Assembly (NCBI GenBank): GCA_020072965.1
Contig: JAIQFY010000008.1
Coordinates: forward strand, 1 to 64,000
DNA: 64,000 nucleotides
Reading direction: 5' to 3'
From: Terriglobia bacterium
Lineage (GTDB): Bacteria > Acidobacteriota > Terriglobia > JAIQFV01
The notes below the pieces were generated by a model that saw nothing but the letters and a program-made list of their open reading frames with translations, made no database searches and was not told the DNA's origin. This document shows, piece by piece, positions 5,413 to 51,075 of this stretch; the first letter of the stretch is position 1, and every line of letters starts with the position of its first letter. Position numbers and translations under genes: made by a program.

Positions 5413-7263
<1,851 letters not shown>

Positions 7264-7285: not shown

Positions 7286-8686
7286 CTATGCTTTTGTGGG
7301 CTTCGATTTCTGTTCAGCGCGCTTTTGTTTCCAGTCCTGCTTGTTTTCCTGCCGGCCGCGTGCAATCGCCAGGGCATCGGGGGGAACATCGCGGGTGATC
7401 ACCGACCCAGCGGCCACATAGGCGCCTTTGTGGACGACAACCGGAGCGACCAGCTCCACCCCGCTGCCGATGAAGCAGTCATCCTCGATCTCGGTCACAT
7501 TCTTATTGACGCCATCATAGTTGCACGTGATGGTACCCGCTCCAATATTGGCATTTTGCCCCACCGTCGTATCACCGAGATAGGTGAGGTGAGAGGCCTT
7601 GGAGTTCTGGCCGAGCCTGGCTTTCTTAAGCTCAACAAAATTGCCGACGCGGGCATTCGATTCGACCTCCGCCTCCAACCGCAGATGGGCGAACGGGCCA
7701 ATGGAGGCTTTCTCGGCGACATGGCTTTCGTTGATGACGCTCAAGTCATTAACCACGACATCGTCTCCGAGGATTGAATGGGTGATGCGGCAATGTGAGC
7801 GAATGACGCAACGCCGGCCAATCGAGGAGGGTCCTTCGATGCGAACACCCGGAAAAAGAATTGTGTCCTGGCCGATCGTGACGTCCTCCTCCACCGAGGT
7901 CGTGGCGGGATCAAGAATCGTTACGCCATCCCGCATAAGCCGCTGGAGAGTCCGCAATCGAAGGACCCGGATGACCTCAGCGAGTTCGATTCGATCATTC
8001 ACCCCCAGAACCTCCATGGGGTCGGGAGTTCCAAAGACATTGACCTTCTTCCTGGCGGCGATCAGCAGTTCGATCAGGTCAGTCAGGTAATATTCCTGTT
8101 GAGAGTTTTGATTACTGAGCCTGGAAATGAACTTCTTAAGGAGATCCAGGGAAATCAGGTAGAGCCCTACATTGATTTCCTTGACACGCCGCTGAGCCGG
8201 GGTAGCGTCGCGGTCTTCGACGATGCGGGTGATCTTCCCGGAACGGTTCTTAAGTATTCGGCCGTAGCCGGAGGGGTCCTCCAAACAGGTTGAGACCACC
8301 GTCGCATCAGCTCGCTCGGAGTGGTGCGATTCCAGGATTTTCTTCAGCAGATTCAAGCCGATGAGCGGGATGTCCCCGTTGAGAATGAGAACCGTTCCCG
8401 ATGTTTGCGGGATCTGCTGCGTTGCGACTAGAATGCAATGACCGGTTCCGAGCTGAGGTTCCTGGGTAATGAACTCGACCGGGTGTTTTCGGAGGGCCGA
8501 TTGAACGTCTTCCGCGCAGTGTCCCACCATGACATAGATGGCCTGAGGGGAAAGCCCCTCCGTGGCTTCGATCACGCGCTCAATCATACTTTTCCCGTGC
8601 ACGGGTGTGGCCAGTTTGGAGCGCCGGGATTTGAAGCGCGTACTTTTGCCCGCAGCCATCACAACAGCGATCAGTGAGTTTGACAT
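7286..8686 (-). CDS. glmU: Bifunctional UDP-GlcNAc pyrophosphorylase / GlcN-1-P acetyltransferase
   Basis: GlmU acetylates glucosamine-1-phosphate and then uridylylates it, completing UDP-GlcNAc synthesis in the cytoplasm. The 466-residue protein has the N-terminal nucleotidyltransferase motif [14 protein letters not shown] (11-24), an ILNGDIPLI region, and a C-terminal left-handed beta-helix of hexapeptide repeats with the acetyltransferase segment around YDGVNKN. The C-terminal tail is lysine-rich. The family norm is about 455 residues, so it is full length. The start at 8686 lacks an obvious Shine-Dalgarno, but upstream sequence does not align with the family. It heads a glmU-glmS operon. 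The 219 bp between it and the TPR gene hold nothing recognised. Confidence 0.95.
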
Positions 8687-8905
8687 GGGCGTATGTTCGC
8701 AGAATTCCGGCTCCCCGCCAATCCCAAAGTATGGGGAAACGATTGCGTCCGCCGCGTCCGGACCTTAACGGGTTGGAGCCCAAACCCGCAAGCGCCCGGC
8801 GATCTTGCACCTGCGGGAGGGCCTCCAACATCACCACGTGTTTCTGCGTTGCAGGCCGTCCACCCAGGCGGACTGACCCGGCAATTTAATATGGGCAACA
8901 GCACT

Positions 8906-9586
8906 CTAAGTGTTGGCAGAGCTCCCATGGACGAGGGCTTGAAATTCAGTGGTTGGTGAGATGAGTTCAAAATCCGAATCGTTTATTGCGGCCGTGCGGT
9001 TTCTGGGATTTAGTTGGATGGCCCGCTGAAGGTACTTCAACGCTTGCTCCAGATGGCCTTGCAGAGACTCGAGAGCGGCGATTCCATAAAGAATGTGGTC
9101 CCCTTTGGGATCGAGGGCAAGGGCTTTTTCCAAGCTCGTTTGCGCCTCTCCGAATTCCCGCCGGTTCAAGTGAGCGATGGCGAGGTTATAGAGATCTTCA
9201 GACGTCTTGGCACCACCGGGACCCTTGGCAAGTCGTTGCTGACATATACTCAAGTGAACTCTCGCGCGTTCGACGATGTCGGGCTCTTTTGGGAATTGGT
9301 CGATCACCTTTTGAAAGGAGTCGCGGGCCTTGGCAAATTCGTGCGAGGCAAAGCTTCTCAAGGCGGCTTCGTAGAGTTTGACCGCTTGAGGATCCCGTTC
9401 CGGGGTCACTGTCCTTTTGATCAAGCGCTTTTCCGGGGGACGGGCCTTTGCGGCTTGTACACGTCCTTCCACCCGTCGGATCGGGACTTTTGACGAAGGC
9501 CGCCCCGAGGGTTTTTGACGTTGAACGGGTCGCGAATTTTTCGACGTTTTCTTCTTGACACTCCGTTGTGTTGTTACTTTTGCCAT
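8906..9586 (-). CDS. TPR-repeat protein with basic N-terminus
   Basis: The 226-residue protein starts with about 65 residues rich in Lys, Arg and Pro (SVKKKTSKN and similar) and then has three or four TPR-like helical hairpins: DSFQKVIDQFPKEP, LAIAHLNRREFGEAQTSLEKA and EQALKYLQRAIQLNP. No signal peptide is seen, so a cytoplasmic, possibly nucleic-acid-binding, scaffold role is plausible. Function is not known. The frame is open to 9703, but ATG 9586 has an AAGAGG 6 bases upstream and begins the natural basic segment. A good minus-strand promoter is at 9761-9789, giving a leader of about 170 nt. It may read through toward glmU 220 bp away. Confidence 0.75.
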   Translation of the reverse strand: MAKVTTQRSVKKKTSKNSRPVQRQKPSGRPSSKVPIRRVEGRVQAAKARPPEKRLIKRTVTPERDPQAVKLYEAALRSFASHEFAKARDSFQKVIDQFPKEPDIVERARVHLSICQQRLAKGPGGAKTSEDLYNLAIAHLNRREFGEAQTSLEKALALDPKGDHILYGIAALESLQGHLEQALKYLQRAIQLNPRNRTAAINDSDFELISPTTEFQALVHGSSANT

Positions 9587-9760
9587 TCTAAACCTCTTTT
9601 GAGTTGTATGGTCGTTGGCATTCCCGGGTGGCCCACTGAAGGCCTGAGAAGCAAGCCAATTCAATGACATAGGAGAGACCACGGTCGCCTCACCTGTGGT
9701 CAAAGACTATCTGAGGGAACCGACAGGTAGCTTTCTTAAGCTTCCAGCCGACGTTTCAAC

Positions 9761-9789
9761 TTATAACAAACCTTCTGAGCTAAAGTCAA
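9761..9789 (-). promoter_or_regulatory. Sigma-70-type promoter for the TPR gene
   Basis: On the minus strand the -35 is TTGACT (9789-9784), a 17-bp spacer follows, and the -10 is TTATAA (9766-9761). It lies about 170 nt upstream of the TPR start and back to back with the plus-strand promoter at 9814. The 327-bp gap 9587-9913 holds no gene. Confidence 0.55.
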
Positions 9790-9813
9790 GGTGACGGCTT
9801 CGGCCTCCAAACA

Positions 9814-9842
9814 TTGACAATTGTTCAGGGCTAGGATAACTT
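9814..9842 (+). promoter_or_regulatory. Candidate promoter for nuoI
   Basis: TTGACA at 9814-9819, a 17-bp spacer, and a weak -10 TAACTT at 9837-9842, about 70 nt upstream of the nuoI ATG. The -35 is perfect and the -10 weak. Confidence 0.4.
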
Positions 9843-9913
9843 AACGCTTTCTCATAGCTGAGGTCGTGGAATAGTAACAGAAGAATGCCATAGAAGGCAG
9901 GGTTACGAACAAG

Positions 9914-10402
9914 ATGAATCTACTTAGAGAGGTTGTGGACGCGTCAGTGGCCCTCGTCAAGGGGTACGGCATGACACTCAGGCACGTCTTCCGGCCCGCG
10001 ATCACAGAGAATTATCCCGACGTGTTGCCAAAATTTGAAGAGCGATATCGCGGAATCCATGAACTTCAGCGGGATGAGAATGGGCTGGAAAAGTGCGTGG
10101 CTTGTTTTTTGTGTTCTGCCGCCTGCCCCGCCAATGCCATTTACATTGAAGCCGCCGAGAATACGGAGAAGGAAAGATTTAGCCAGGCCGAGCGTTACGC
10201 CAAGGTTTACAACATCGATTACGGCCGATGTATTTTTTGCGGGTTTTGTGTGGAAGCTTGCCCCACGGACGCCATTACCCACGGCCACAAATTTGAATTT
10301 GCCATCTACGATACGAAGGACTTGATTTATACAAAAGACATGCTGCTTGTGCCGGATTCGCGAAAGGAGAAGGGAAGGAAGGCCTCTGATCAGGCCGCTT
10401 GA
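9914..10402 (+). CDS. nuoI: NADH-quinone oxidoreductase subunit I (orphan)
   Basis: NuoI is the two-cluster ferredoxin-like subunit that carries electrons inside respiratory complex I. Both CxxCxxCxxxCP motifs are complete (Cys61, 64, 67, 71 and 106, 109, 112, 116), so two [4Fe-4S] clusters should bind. The N-terminus (VDASVALVKGYGMTLRHVF) and the segment ITENYPDVLPKF match NuoI rather than a free ferredoxin. At 162 residues it is full length. No other nuo gene is in the window: a TPR gene lies divergently upstream and a terminator-like hairpin follows at 10487. It may be a detached or second copy that joins a complex encoded elsewhere. Confidence 0.88.
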   Translation: MNLLREVVDASVALVKGYGMTLRHVFRPAITENYPDVLPKFEERYRGIHELQRDENGLEKCVACFLCSAACPANAIYIEAAENTEKERFSQAERYAKVYNIDYGRCIFCGFCVEACPTDAITHGHKFEFAIYDTKDLIYTKDMLLVPDSRKEKGRKASDQAA

Positions 10403-46241: not shown

Positions 46242-46270
46242 TTGACATCGAAAATGCCTCGGTGTAATTT
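46242..46270 (+). promoter_or_regulatory. Promoter of the iron/flavin locus
   Basis: TTGACA (46242-46247), a 17-bp spacer and TAATTT (46265-46270). The expected start point (about 46277) falls inside the Fur box that begins 2 bp downstream. Confidence 0.65.
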
Positions 46271-46271
46271 T

Positions 46272-46300
46272 ATATTGAAAATGATATTCATTTTCAATAT
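46272..46300. promoter_or_regulatory. Fur box: perfect 29-bp palindrome
   Basis: ATATTGAAAATGA, TAT, TCATTTTCAATAT: two 13-bp arms with no mismatch. It contains two overlapping 7-1-7 Fur sites (TGAAAAT-G-ATATTCA and TGATATT-C-ATTTTCA). Lying immediately downstream of the -10, it would block transcription when Fur is iron-loaded. A fur-family gene ends the same locus at 50575. Confidence 0.8.
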
Positions 46301-46329
46301 TGCTTGTGCGCCCTAAGAGGTGAATACCA

Positions 46330-46827
46330 GTGAGCTCTTTAACGCGGCATGACAAAGGCCCCTGGATGCCCCGGGTTCATCTCTGGCTGGGGGTTTCCGT
46401 CGGCCTGTATTTCTTGGGTCTCGCTCTGACCGGGATTGTACTGAATCATCGGACCGACTGGGGGTTGGAGGAGAAAACGGTCAGCCATCGTTTTCTGCCC
46501 TCGCAATATCGCCCCATGGACGAAGGGGAAAGAACGCGGCTGGATATAGTGATTGCCGATCTGCACTCCGGGCTGCTGTTCGGAAAGTACGGTCCTGCGG
46601 TGAATGATGTCATCGCCTTGATACTGGTGACCTCAACGTTGACGGGATTTGCGTTGGCGTGGAAACGAGCCAGGAAACGGGACATGTTCTCCTTGGCCTC
46701 TCGGGAGAGGCATGAATCCTCATTCTGTCGAACGTCTGAGGGGACCCCGGACCCCAAACAACTCAGAGTGAACACCTTCAATGGAACCTGGCCAAAAGTA
46801 TCCCTGCCAGATTCGGAAGAAGAGTGA
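46330..46827 (+). CDS. Minimal PepSY-associated transmembrane protein
   Basis: The 165-residue membrane protein has two helices: 15-39 (VHLWLGVSVGLYFLGLALTG) and about 88-111 (AVNDVIALILVTSTLTGFAL). Between them is a short loop with DLHSG. His18, His40 and His79 sit at the helix ends, a layout that could ligate heme as proposed for larger PepSY-TM reductases. The PepSY loop domains are missing. It starts at GTG 46330, with AAGAGG 9 bases upstream and 30 nt past the Fur box. The polar tail from about 115 is unrelated to anything I recognise. It probably moves electrons across the inner membrane; this is inference from locus context. Confidence 0.68.
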   Translation: MSSLTRHDKGPWMPRVHLWLGVSVGLYFLGLALTGIVLNHRTDWGLEEKTVSHRFLPSQYRPMDEGERTRLDIVIADLHSGLLFGKYGPAVNDVIALILVTSTLTGFALAWKRARKRDMFSLASRERHESSFCRTSEGTPDPKQLRVNTFNGTWPKVSLPDSEEE

Positions 46828-46904
46828 AGGGCTGTCCGGGCCGTTGGCAAATGATGACTCTCCTTCTCATATCCGCCACGCAATGACCCTCTGGAGGCTC
46901 TTAT

Positions 46905-48581
46905 ATGAGGTTTCAGCGTTCTTGGAAATGCTTATTCTGCCTGTTGATCCTGTCTTTGAGCAGTGAAGTTGCCTGGGGGCAAAGTGCCTCCAGCACATCG
47001 GAGGCGGCGAAACCCGGAAGTGCAATCCCACAGAAGTCCGACCGCGACCAGTTTTTATCGAAAATCTCGGACCTGCAAGCACAAATCGATGCCCTCCGGA
47101 AGCAAATCGCGCTGGGTGCGCAGGCTGGGGCCGGAACCCCTGTCACGGCGGTCGTTCCCGTTGAACAGGCCAAGGGGCCCCTCACCGCCAACGACGGTTT
47201 GGGAGTAAATTCGGAAACCTCATCCGGGAGCAATCCCCCGGGACCAGTCAACGTGCTCGGTGATCATGTAAGAGTTGGTGGTTATGGCTCAGTCCGGTTT
47301 GAAGCGAACAACGTGGCGGCTGGACACTTTGTGCCGGGCGGGTCAGCCAACGCCTTTACGTTTCGCCGTTTCGTGTTGACTACAGAGGCTCGGTTCAGCG
47401 ATCGCCTTCGAATCTATACGGAGACGGAGTTTGAGAGGCTGTTGGAACTGGAAGTCGAACGAAAGGTCGTGAGTAGTGCGGGCGGCCTTCAATTCGAACA
47501 AGGCCTGGAAGGAACCAATGGAGGAGCCATTGAACTTGAACAGGCCTGGGGCCAGTTCGATTTTTCGAAAAACCACGGATTCCGGTTCGGCGTCGTCTTA
47601 ACCCCGGTGGGGCGTTACAACATCAATCATGACGACGATTATTGGGATCTCCCTCGACGTACGCTGACCGACCGCGATGGTCCTGTCCTGCCGGTGAAAA
47701 CGGCATGGAGGGAATTGGGGGCGGGCCTGGTTGGTCATGGCAACGTGGGGGGGCGCGGCCGAATCGATTATCAAGTCTATGTGTTGGGCGGTGCCACTCT
47801 GGATTTTGCGCTGAATCAGATCAACCAGACGGGTGGTTCGCAACCGGGCCGTGTGGTGTCGGAAGCGGAGGTGGGGTTGACCTCCGGTGCTTTTGACGGG
47901 ACGAAGTCCGCTCAGGCCGTGAGTTATCGCCTGGCTTACAGCCCGCGCCTGGGAAGCGAGATCGCCCTTTCGGGTTATCATGGAAAATATACGCCAGGTT
48001 TTCTTCCGGTCTCTGAAGCGGTCCAAGTGATCGGACTGGATGGGAATTTCAAACACAAGGCGTTTGCACTGGAAGGGGAGGTGATTGTTTCTGATTTTGG
48101 AAATGTCCGCAATGTGCTGGCTGCCTTTGCGGAGCGTACCTTCACCTCTTCTTTAGAGAATTCGGGGAATGGTGGCTTGCGATCGGAGATGGAATTCAGC
48201 CTGGAGGGACTGGCGCGGAGACGGTACGGCTTTTGGACCGATGTCAAGTATCACTGGCGGCCGAATTTTTTGAAGAAGACTCTCCTGGGTCGAGGGTTTG
48301 AGGATCCCGTCTTGATCCCGATTGTTCGATATGAGCTCGTCTGGCTCAAAGACCTCGTCACCGGCCTGGCGTTCGACCGGGGGATTCTCACAGAACTCAC
48401 TCAGGAGAACCGGAGTCAGGATCGGCTGACGGTCGGAATCAGTTACCGCCCCGTGGCGTCCTTCGCGTTCCAGCTCGCGTTTGAACACAATCAGCGCCGA
48501 TCGGGATCAATGTTGATTTATCCGGAGGTTCCACAAAAATCGACGAATGGTTTTCTTGTGGGAATGAGTTTCGGCTTTTAG
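46905..48581 (+). CDS. Outer-membrane porin with N-terminal coiled coil
   Basis: The 558-residue protein has a signal peptide (1-about 25, ending AWGQ), a coiled coil (47-70, DLQAQIDALRKQIAL) that usually trimerises porins at the cell wall, a Pro/Gly linker, and a beta barrel from about 120 to the final aromatic FLVGMSFGF. Alternating-residue strands and a terminal Phe support an outer-membrane barrel. It resembles phosphate-selective (OprO/P-like) porins, but substrate cannot be inferred. ATG 46905 has GGAGG 6 bases upstream. It follows the PepSY gene by 77 bp and shares the Fur-box promoter by position. Confidence 0.82.
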   Translation: MRFQRSWKCLFCLLILSLSSEVAWGQSASSTSEAAKPGSAIPQKSDRDQFLSKISDLQAQIDALRKQIALGAQAGAGTPVTAVVPVEQAKGPLTANDGLGVNSETSSGSNPPGPVNVLGDHVRVGGYGSVRFEANNVAAGHFVPGGSANAFTFRRFVLTTEARFSDRLRIYTETEFERLLELEVERKVVSSAGGLQFEQGLEGTNGGAIELEQAWGQFDFSKNHGFRFGVVLTPVGRYNINHDDDYWDLPRRTLTDRDGPVLPVKTAWRELGAGLVGHGNVGGRGRIDYQVYVLGGATLDFALNQINQTGGSQPGRVVSEAEVGLTSGAFDGTKSAQAVSYRLAYSPRLGSEIALSGYHGKYTPGFLPVSEAVQVIGLDGNFKHKAFALEGEVIVSDFGNVRNVLAAFAERTFTSSLENSGNGGLRSEMEFSLEGLARRRYGFWTDVKYHWRPNFLKKTLLGRGFEDPVLIPIVRYELVWLKDLVTGLAFDRGILTELTQENRSQDRLTVGISYRPVASFAFQLAFEHNQRRSGSMLIYPEVPQKSTNGFLVGMSFGF

Positions 48582-48804
48582 AGGAAAACGGGCCTGCGTG
48601 TGAACCTGCGGGGAGACCGTGCCCATTGTGGTTGAGGGAATCTCTGGACGGGAAATAATTTGAGCCGTGAATTGATTTGAGTTATCGGCTTTGCACCTCC
48701 CGCCTCGTCGGAGGGTAGCCTCGAGCTTGCCGTTGCAACCCTTTTTCTGTTCTTATCATGCGGTTGCGGGGACCCACCGCCATTTAATGCCCGGAAGGAC
48801 CTGA

Positions 48805-49359
48805 ATGATGAAGACGCACGCATTGTGTCTCGCAGTCACTTTATTGCTCGTGACCGCGCCGCTGCTGGTCGCCGAGAAATACCTGACCGAAGCTCAAGCT
48901 TTGAAGATAGCCTTCCCCCAGTCCCAGAGCGTCAATGCAGAGACACGACTGATCTCCGATGATGATCGGCAGGAGATCAAAAAGCGATACGGGATTGAGA
49001 TTATGGGTACATCAGTCAGAATATTCTCCGGAAGAAGTAATTCCAAGGTCGATGGTTATGCCGTAATCGATAGCGAGGTCGGAAAGAGCGAGCCGATCAC
49101 GTTTATTGTGGCCATCGACCCGTTGGGAAAAGTCCAGACCGTCGCCATCATGGAGTTCCGGGAGACCCGGGGATGGGAAGTGAAGGAGCCGCGTTTTCTG
49201 CGCCAGTTCCATGGGAAGAGATCCACCGATCATCTCCGGGTCAACGATGATGTGGTTAACTTGAGTGGTGCAACTCTTTCGTCATATGCCGTGACCAAGG
49301 GCGTAAAGAAAGCGGTGGTACTGGTCGATTATTACTTTCTTCGATCGGGCGGAAGGTAG
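48805..49359 (+). CDS. Secreted FMN-binding-domain protein (flavinylation target)
   Basis: The 184-residue protein has a signal peptide (1-about 23, LLLVTAPLLVA) and an FMN_bind domain (about 70-175), the fold of RnfG/NqrC. SGAT (154-157) in VVNLSGATLSS is the place where ApbE attaches FMN through a phosphoester to the Thr; the usual Asp before it is Asn or Val here. Gene apbE begins 60 bp downstream, a strong contextual match. No other Rnf or Nqr genes are present. ATG 48805 has GGAAGG 6 bases upstream. It presumably shuttles electrons in the periplasm between the PepSY protein and an acceptor. Confidence 0.82.
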   Translation: MMKTHALCLAVTLLLVTAPLLVAEKYLTEAQALKIAFPQSQSVNAETRLISDDDRQEIKKRYGIEIMGTSVRIFSGRSNSKVDGYAVIDSEVGKSEPITFIVAIDPLGKVQTVAIMEFRETRGWEVKEPRFLRQFHGKRSTDHLRVNDDVVNLSGATLSSYAVTKGVKKAVVLVDYYFLRSGGR

Positions 49360-49419
49360 GGATATCCCCTGAGCGCGACATGTCAATACACCCCTAAGGC
49401 CCATCCTGCGGCTGTAAGA

Positions 49420-50511
49420 TTGTCTGGTTTCAGGAGGACCTGGATTCCCGCAGGTATCGCTGTGGTCGCGGTGATGGCCACGATGGGGTTCAGTGCGTCC
49501 CATTCACATTCAATCTTTCACAGGCAGATGCGTTACGTGATGGGGACCCTGTGCGAAATTTTGATTTATGATGAGGACCCGATGAGGGCGGAGCAGGCAA
49601 CCAATCAGGCGTTCGAAGAGATGCAAAGGGTGGATCGGCTCTTGAGCAATTACGATCCAAACAGTGAGTTGAGCCGGATGAATCGGATGGCTGCCTCGGG
49701 CCCCTTTGAAGCGTCTGTCAGGTTGCTTGGGTTCATGACACAGTGTCAGGAGTTTTACAGGCTTACCGAAGGGGCCTTTGACCCCACGGTAGGCCCCCTG
49801 GTTCGCGCCTGGGGGTTTCTTGGACTTCAACCTCGCATCCCCACGATGAATGAAATCGAAGCCGCCCGCGCCAAAGTCGGAATGGAAAAGATCGAGGTCG
49901 ATGCGGCTCATGCCACCATCCGCTTCCCGGTCGAGGGAATGGAGATCGATCCCGGAGGTATCGGCAAGGGCTATGCAGTGGATCGGGCAGTCGGAGCGCT
50001 GAGGCGGTCTGGCATTACCTCCGCCCTTGTTAACGCGGGTGGCAGTTCCTTCTATGGGATGGGGTGCCCCCCCGGGCAGCAGTTTTGGTGGATCGGAGTC
50101 AAGGATCCGTCTGTTCCTGACCGTGCCGTTGCCTTCGTTGCACTCCATGACAATTCGCTCTCCACCTCGGGAAGCCTCGAACAATATGTGCGCGTGGGAG
50201 GTCAGACCCTCGGACACATTTTTGATCCACGATCGGGGTCGCCTGTGGAGGGAGTCCTTGAGGTGAGCGTCGTCGCCCCCACAGCGACCGAATCAGATGC
50301 ACTAACGAAGGCAGCTTTTGTTTTGTCGCCCCCCGTCGCCTTCGAGATATTTCATAAACGGGGCGGGATCCACGCTCTGCGATTCGAGCGTATGGGGTCC
50401 GACGGGTGGCGCCTCCGGATGACTCCCTGGTCACATTCGGTGTTTAGCTTTGGGCGCAGGGTTCCCAGGACCCGTACGGCCGGACTTGTTGATTTGAATG
50501 GAGAGAACTGA
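49420..50511 (+). CDS. apbE: ApbE, FAD:protein FMN transferase
   Basis: Transfers FMN from FAD to a Thr/Ser of FMN_bind-domain proteins outside the cytoplasm. The 363-residue protein has a signal or anchor segment (about 9-28), then the ApbE fold with MRYVMGTLCEILIY, FDPTVGPLVRAWGF, the Mg/FAD motif DPGGIGKGYAVDRAVGAL, and LGHIFDPRSG. The start is TTG 49420; an AGGAGG a few codons inside suggests that a slightly later non-ATG start may be used instead. Its likely substrate is the FMN-binding protein encoded just upstream. Confidence 0.9.
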   Translation: MSGFRRTWIPAGIAVVAVMATMGFSASHSHSIFHRQMRYVMGTLCEILIYDEDPMRAEQATNQAFEEMQRVDRLLSNYDPNSELSRMNRMAASGPFEASVRLLGFMTQCQEFYRLTEGAFDPTVGPLVRAWGFLGLQPRIPTMNEIEAARAKVGMEKIEVDAAHATIRFPVEGMEIDPGGIGKGYAVDRAVGALRRSGITSALVNAGGSSFYGMGCPPGQQFWWIGVKDPSVPDRAVAFVALHDNSLSTSGSLEQYVRVGGQTLGHIFDPRSGSPVEGVLEVSVVAPTATESDALTKAAFVLSPPVAFEIFHKRGGIHALRFERMGSDGWRLRMTPWSHSVFSFGRRVPRTRTAGLVDLNGEN

Positions 50512-50574
50512 TAGATTACGGTTCACAGACTCATCAGGTCCCAACAAAATAAGGATAGACCTTGAGGTGACCCT

Positions 50575-51075
50575 ATGAACCCGGCCCGAGTGTTGGATAT
50601 ATCGGAAGTAAGCAAGGCCCAAGGGACCATCCCTGTCACTGAGGAGAAGCACGTCTTCGAAGAGCACCTCAAGGCGGTTGGCTTAAAGCATTCGCACCAA
50701 CGGGACGTCATCCTGGATGAGTTTCTGAAGCATCGAACACATTTGAGCGTGGACGATCTCTATCAAATGGCGCGTCAGAGGGATCAAAGGATCGGATTCA
50801 GCACAGTATTCCGGACCATGAAACTTCTTAAAGATTGTGGCGTCGCACGTGAAGTGGTTCTGGCTGACGGAATTTCACGCTTTGAGCGCAACTACAAATA
50901 TCCCCATCACGATCACCTCATCTGCACTTCTTGCAACAAGACCGTGGAGTTTTTTGTCTCTGAAATCGAAGACCTGCAGGAGCAGGTGGCGAAGAAATAT
51001 CATTTCAAGATGAAGCACCATGTCATGGTGCTATACGGTCTCTGTCGCGATTGCCAGCGCGCTCTCAAGACGTGA
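50575..51075 (+). CDS. Fur-family iron-responsive repressor
   Basis: The 166-residue regulator has a winged helix (about 30-105, LSVDDLYQMARQRDQRIGFSTVFRTMKLLKD) and a dimerisation domain with HHDH (111-114). Two CxxC zinc pairs (Cys117/120 in CTSC, Cys157/160 in CRDC) are present. The HHDHLICTSC motif and the perfect Fur box at 46272 favour Fur over Zur or PerR. A roughly 25-residue N-terminal extension precedes the domain. ATG 50575 has GAGGTG 5 bases upstream. It lies 63 bp after apbE and probably controls the locus it ends. Confidence 0.88.
   Translation: MNPARVLDISEVSKAQGTIPVTEEKHVFEEHLKAVGLKHSHQRDVILDEFLKHRTHLSVDDLYQMARQRDQRIGFSTVFRTMKLLKDCGVAREVVLADGISRFERNYKYPHHDHLICTSCNKTVEFFVSEIEDLQEQVAKKYHFKMKHHVMVLYGLCRDCQRALKT

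Follow-up and report, generated by a model that had tools for sequence, protein, structure and literature searches.

A Fur-boxed locus for a porin, an FMN-binding protein, ApbE and a two-helix PepSY protein as a candidate iron-uptake module in Terriglobia

Genes of the locus

Five open reading frames (ORFs) in one direction were found by ORF reading and Pfam between rseP on the 5' side and glnA on the 3' side, in the window, which is the whole stretch of 64,000 nucleotides analysed here (Table 1). All five lay at the positions and on the strand given in the original prediction. Rnf, Nqr and TonB genes had also been said to be missing, which is right for the locus, but the TonB part did not hold genome-wide, where 24 matches to TonB-receptor barrels were revealed. 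The gap between the porin and FMN_bind genes (48582-48804) is 223 bp long, versus 67 bp in the same-genus genome G001; a second promoter may lie there, and the genes are thus not certain to share one transcript.

Table 1. Features of the locus and of related loci (numbers with L denote loci outside the window)
Feature	Position	Strand	Remarks
Candidate promoter	46242..46276	+	consensus match only
Fur operator ATATTGAAAATGATATTCATTTTCAATAT	46272..46300	+	13-bp arms; pattern search, conserved in G001
PepSY_TM protein	46330..46827	+	165 aa, GTG start; Pfam E 9e-10
Outer-membrane porin (predicted)	46905..48581	+	558 aa; signal peptide (signal helix in the model), coiled coil, barrel of about 18 strands
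FMN_bind protein, secreted	48805..49359	+	Pfam E 1e-10; flavinylation motif S154-G-A-T157
ApbE FAD:protein FMN transferase	49420..50511	+	Pfam E 2e-75
FUR, Fur sensu stricto	50575..51075	+	Pfam E 3e-33
Four-helix family members	L048:8007-8546, L050:3-536, L053:9633-10151, L055:5056-5571, L060:4810-5409		motif E-(T/I)-(T/S)-HFHxFxM...AH...WL
ApbE with N-terminal multi-helix His-bearing membrane domain	L027:7469-8938		Fur-box-like site upstream of porin
FMN_bind and ApbE as one continuous frame	L023:1883-3346; L043:1474-3228

The FMN_bind protein matched PF04205 with 42.4 bits (cut-off 22), and its Thr157 is the T of the SGAT motif, which was invariant in 13 of 13 relatives. ApbE scored 253.9 bits against PF02424 (cut-off 25.6). 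Both the secreted SGAT protein and the flavin transferase had been predicted, and the two family matches agree with this. The only ApbE and the only FMN_bind of the genome are located in this locus, so ApbE has no Nqr or Rnf flavoprotein outside the locus as a substrate. RnfG was the nearest solved relative of FMN_bind (E 7e-10), but no other Rnf or Nqr subunit existed in the locus. A role in Rnf or Nqr was rejected, with 50.1 vs 205 bits for RnfG, 44.6 vs 102 for NqrC and no second FMN_bind in the genome. In two other loci FMN_bind and ApbE form one frame, in which a flavin acceptor would be fused to its own transferase. When contigs were scanned with the FMN_bind protein alone, no match was obtained.

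No Pfam or NCBIfam match was obtained for the porin product, and the porin profile had no meaningful solved relative by sequence. The structural model was paired by Foldseek with OmpC/OmpK36 and OprP/OprO at a sequence identity of 9-13%; because of this barrel and these matches the predicted identity as an outer-membrane porin is sound at the level of the modelled fold. Porin_O_P (PF07396) weakly matched three of 13 family members (best E 1e-5) and not the window protein. The family shares a conserved loop, NxxHDDDYWDLPRRTL. A TonB-dependent receptor was also considered for the barrel and discarded, with no plug or TBDR match in Pfam and a porin-type fold.

The PepSY_TM protein matched PF03929 with 39.2 bits (cut-off 28.8) and PF16357 with 33 (cut-off 27), and it was the only PepSY_TM match in the genome. 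It had been described as a two-helix protein with three histidines at helix ends, and the Pfam match, the positions of His17, His40 and His79 and their conservation in relatives all agree with that, with His17 missing in the reading of L025. Basic residues precede helix 1 and follow helix 2, therefore an N-in/C-in topology is suggested, with His40 and His79 on the periplasmic face and His17 on the cytosolic face. The periplasmic PepSY domain is essentially absent, a loop of about 45 aa standing in its place, and with this near-loss the flavoprotein would be the part that reduces the substrate. The predicted structure was poor (pLDDT 59), which counts against the iron-uptake reading proposed below, and the PepSY profile had no meaningful solved relative by sequence.

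FoxB, HiuB and VciB, in which periplasmic iron reduction feeds Feo, likewise possess the PepSY_TM region and histidines at both membrane faces, but their helices number at least four and they enclose a large periplasmic cavity (PMC13038864), whereas the window protein has two helices and almost no periplasmic domain. FoxB carries four helices, four His and two bis-His haems, while only three conserved His exist here, and this difference also weighs against iron uptake. The window protein therefore falls outside the FoxB type, though it could work in a FoxB-like way as a dimer. Since a two-helix protein is half of the FoxB-type four helices, a dimer rebuilding the four-helix bundle is probably the natural guess by analogy.

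Fur, its operator and the iron regulon

The best PDB matches of the FUR product were ferric uptake regulation proteins (E 1e-25), ahead of PerR, which assigns it by sequence to Fur rather than to PerR or Zur. In the sister genus (G002) the order was dxr, rseP, fur and glnA, with one unrelated ORF on the opposite strand between fur and glnA; the module genes were absent, and the Fur was 78% identical to that of the window. Because fur occupies this place even where the module is missing, the window Fur is the general housekeeping Fur. The locus had been credited with its own Fur, and this did not survive the comparison; a dedicated module regulator was dropped on the same gene order. Thus fur predates the module, whose four remaining genes either arrived next to it or were lost from that place. 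Another Fur-family gene, the second in the genome, adjoins a rubrerythrin-like gene and is probably PerR. In a gp2 Acidobacteria MAG (L044:2474-9000) the module together with Fur also follows rseP, and that Fur belongs to another clade.

The operator had been called a perfect palindrome of 29 bp. Its arms are indeed fully complementary, but the 3-nt centre is asymmetric, so that 26 of 29 positions are symmetric; matches expected by chance came to 0.00 in shuffling, and the operator is retained in G001 (locus L021, around 6344-6372). The promoter was less good than claimed: the -35 element TTGACA (46242-46247) fits the consensus in full, but the -10 element TAATTT, separated from it by 17 bp, matches at three of six positions. 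A promoter scanner preferred TCGAAA-17-TATATT (9/12), which overlaps the Fur box.

Only two zero-mismatch GAWAATGANNWTCATTWTC sites were present in the whole 5.9-Mb genome, the module operator and one before feoB, and a palindrome with two mismatches was located between the divergent VIT1 and FTR1 genes. For the reversed control pattern the counts were 6 and 9, compared with 67 and 70 for the true pattern. A DtxR-FeoA-like gene adjoins feoB, which has the Fur box on its 5' side; in its product a FeoA domain is joined to a metal-binding domain of DtxR type (L035:5564-6214), and the feoB box is the second-best of the genome. At two other Fur-box-like sites (C86 and C43) no iron gene was evident alongside. 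From these sites the module appears to belong to an iron regulon that is small and coherent, and we strongly infer that it is controlled by iron, since the same box occurs at feoB and VIT1/FTR1.

Enrichment of the classical Fur box (19 positions) was measured against dinucleotide shuffles in 400 bp upstream of 22 loci. Eleven of them had a match of at least 14/19, with a combined Fisher p of 7e-14, which is optimistic in that the loci share ancestry and single p-values were floored by 300 shuffles. Iron repression, as first predicted, is therefore supported on the side of sequence by the boxes of feoB and VIT1/FTR1 and by this enrichment across phyla. The 400-bp scan revealed no recognisable Fur box upstream in L024, L044 and L047-L049, which is held against the iron-uptake reading; box-less loci, such as L024 and L044, often adjoin a Fur gene from a different clade.

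Relatives in other phyla and exchange of partners

Contigs from about 85,000 species were searched with the porin profile only. Eighteen clear relatives were obtained from Acidobacteria, Blastocatellia, Deltaproteobacteria/Binatota, Dadabacteria, Methylomirabilota and Tectomicrobia, and in 15 of them FMN_bind adjoined the porin, ApbE usually being there as well; these loci span at least five phyla. L055 was counted among the 15 by ORF reading and Pfam; the other three were L050 and L052, which are cut by contig ends, and L054, without FMN_bind. One relative, titled as a Klebsiella pneumoniae MAG (L060), was nearly identical in gene content to a Deltaproteobacteria MAG (L058), so its label looks wrong.

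Gene order in relatives had been proposed as a check. G001, from the sample of the same class, was syntenic including the operator and Fur, but in other phyla the genes were rearranged and parts were swapped. The module is also patchy, since at E 1e-20 the porin was present in 3 of 297 genomes sampled from the phylum, a further count against iron uptake. Distances of porin, FMN_bind and ApbE correlated at 0.58-0.89, species relatedness not being controlled, which is consistent with co-inheritance; a functional link among the three is supported by their conservation across several phyla.

The membrane partner varied. The two-helix PepSY protein was present in the window, G001, L023, L025, L044 and L047, while an unannotated four-helix protein of about 175 aa occupied its slot in L048, L049, L050, L053, L055, L057, L058 and L060. 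In this family H75-x-H77 and H90 are invariant, no Pfam or NCBIfam model names it, and its profile (class B) had no meaningful solved relative by sequence; it is a candidate for a new haem-binding membrane donor. A third His-bearing membrane type was found in L026, and in L027 it is fused to ApbE, which puts donor and flavin transferase in one chain; our reading suggests that it is DUF4405-like, with no Pfam hit. In L025 a TonB-dependent receptor with a carboxypeptidase-regulatory domain (7726-10353) replaces the porin before FMN_bind-ApbE-PepSY, so the outer-membrane slot would be an import slot. What stays constant is an outer-membrane entry, a flavoprotein, its transferase and a His-bearing membrane donor, which is what one would expect of a reductase in the periplasm that is supplied from outside.

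The porin might instead serve as a conduit or exit through which electrons leave the cell, in flavin-based extracellular or respiratory transfer to ferric oxides or other acceptors. A porin beside a flavoprotein recalls the porin-cytochrome conduits, and ApbE systems elsewhere serve extracellular electron transfer; but repression by Fur when iron is plentiful suits assimilation, L025 has a TonB receptor instead of the porin, and the clusters showed neither a terminal oxidoreductase nor a multihaem protein. We regard this route as improbable.

Iron genes also occurred within related clusters, namely FTR1 in L047 and L056, a FeoA-like gene in L047, and Fur in L043, L044, L046, L056 and L057. These bear on whether the module could reduce or import another metal, e.g. 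copper, or a ferric chelate for a non-nutritional purpose, with Fur acting in general iron sparing. CrpH, a PepSY_TM protein of Bordetella, serves copper and haem-copper oxidase function (PMC13038864), and the metal of PepSY_TM proteins is not assignable from sequence. The Fur boxes, the FTR1, Fur and FeoA-like neighbours in several phyla and the box common to feoB and FTR1 argue the other way, and they leave another metal a small chance. A swap that spares iron would be similarly unlikely. Under iron starvation a relay through flavin would then take over from haem or iron-sulphur carriers in some other reduction in the periplasm, for instance when oxidised proteins are repaired, and the porin would be a general nutrient channel. 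A flavodoxin-like iron-sparing idea was put forward for flavinylation (PMC8238504), but the membrane partner here itself looks haem-based, and the FTR1 linkage and the TonB-receptor swap favour iron uptake.

Proposed iron uptake and its meaning

We consider it likely that the module is an iron-repressed reductive iron-uptake system. Under iron starvation Fur would leave the operator and the four proteins would be made. Ferric iron or small chelates of it would enter the periplasm through the porin, and FMN would be covalently attached to Thr157 of the FMN_bind protein by ApbE. The PepSY_TM protein, probably as a dimer, would draw electrons from the inner membrane and deliver them, by way of bis-His haem, to the flavin. 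There, still in the periplasm, Fe(III) would be reduced to Fe(II), which would then be handed over for import to FeoB and/or the FTR1 permease, whose genes have the same Fur box. The identities of the genes, the operator, the co-conservation and the swapping of partners come from computation, while ferric reduction would follow, by analogy, the interpretation given in the literature to PepSY/ApbE clusters under Fur repression (PMC8238504). Some of the 24 TonB-receptor-like barrels of the genome may import iron, and this too is counted against the proposal.

PepSY-like flavinylation clusters are reported to be repressed by Fur in Shewanella and Caulobacter, and iron reduction and assimilation were proposed for them (Méheust et al. 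2021, PMC8238504); the same paper also covers iron reduction by VciB. The Caulobacter genes CCNA_03155-03159 have a fitness role under EDTA (PMC12004947). The window locus resembles these clusters in joining PepSY_TM (PF03929/PF16357) with ApbE and a secreted protein that is predicted to be flavinylated. Their usual partners DUF2271 and DUF4198, frequent but not obligatory, had no Pfam match among the five window proteins; FMN_bind stands in their place, together with a dedicated porin and a two-helix PepSY protein. In relatives other His membrane proteins replace PepSY, and porins are unmentioned in PMC8238504. In P19/FTR1 clusters FMN_bind was linked to the FTR1 permease and iron assimilation (PMC8238504), whereas here P19 is absent and FTR1 lies elsewhere in the genome under the same box, being adjacent only in L047 and L056.

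No paper joining ApbE, a porin, FMN-binding, iron and PepSY was found in a partial coverage of the literature. The gene set had been called less familiar. Its new elements are the porin family dedicated to it, the two-helix protein that has lost nearly all of PepSY and the membrane partners that can stand in for one another, but Fur-repressed PepSY/ApbE clusters with a proposed role in iron reduction are already known.

The wider proposal is a previously undescribed, TonB-independent reductive uptake in at least five mostly uncultured phyla, composed of a dedicated porin family, a flavinylated reductase and interchangeable minimal haem proteins including the four-helix HxH...H family, and we give it about an even chance. 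If the proposal is true, ApbE flavinylation would be central to assimilatory ferric reduction, and uncultured bacteria of soil and groundwater would gain a recognisable iron route that bypasses the siderophore receptor, with the porin family, the two-helix PepSY protein and the unannotated His membrane family as new parts that can be tested.
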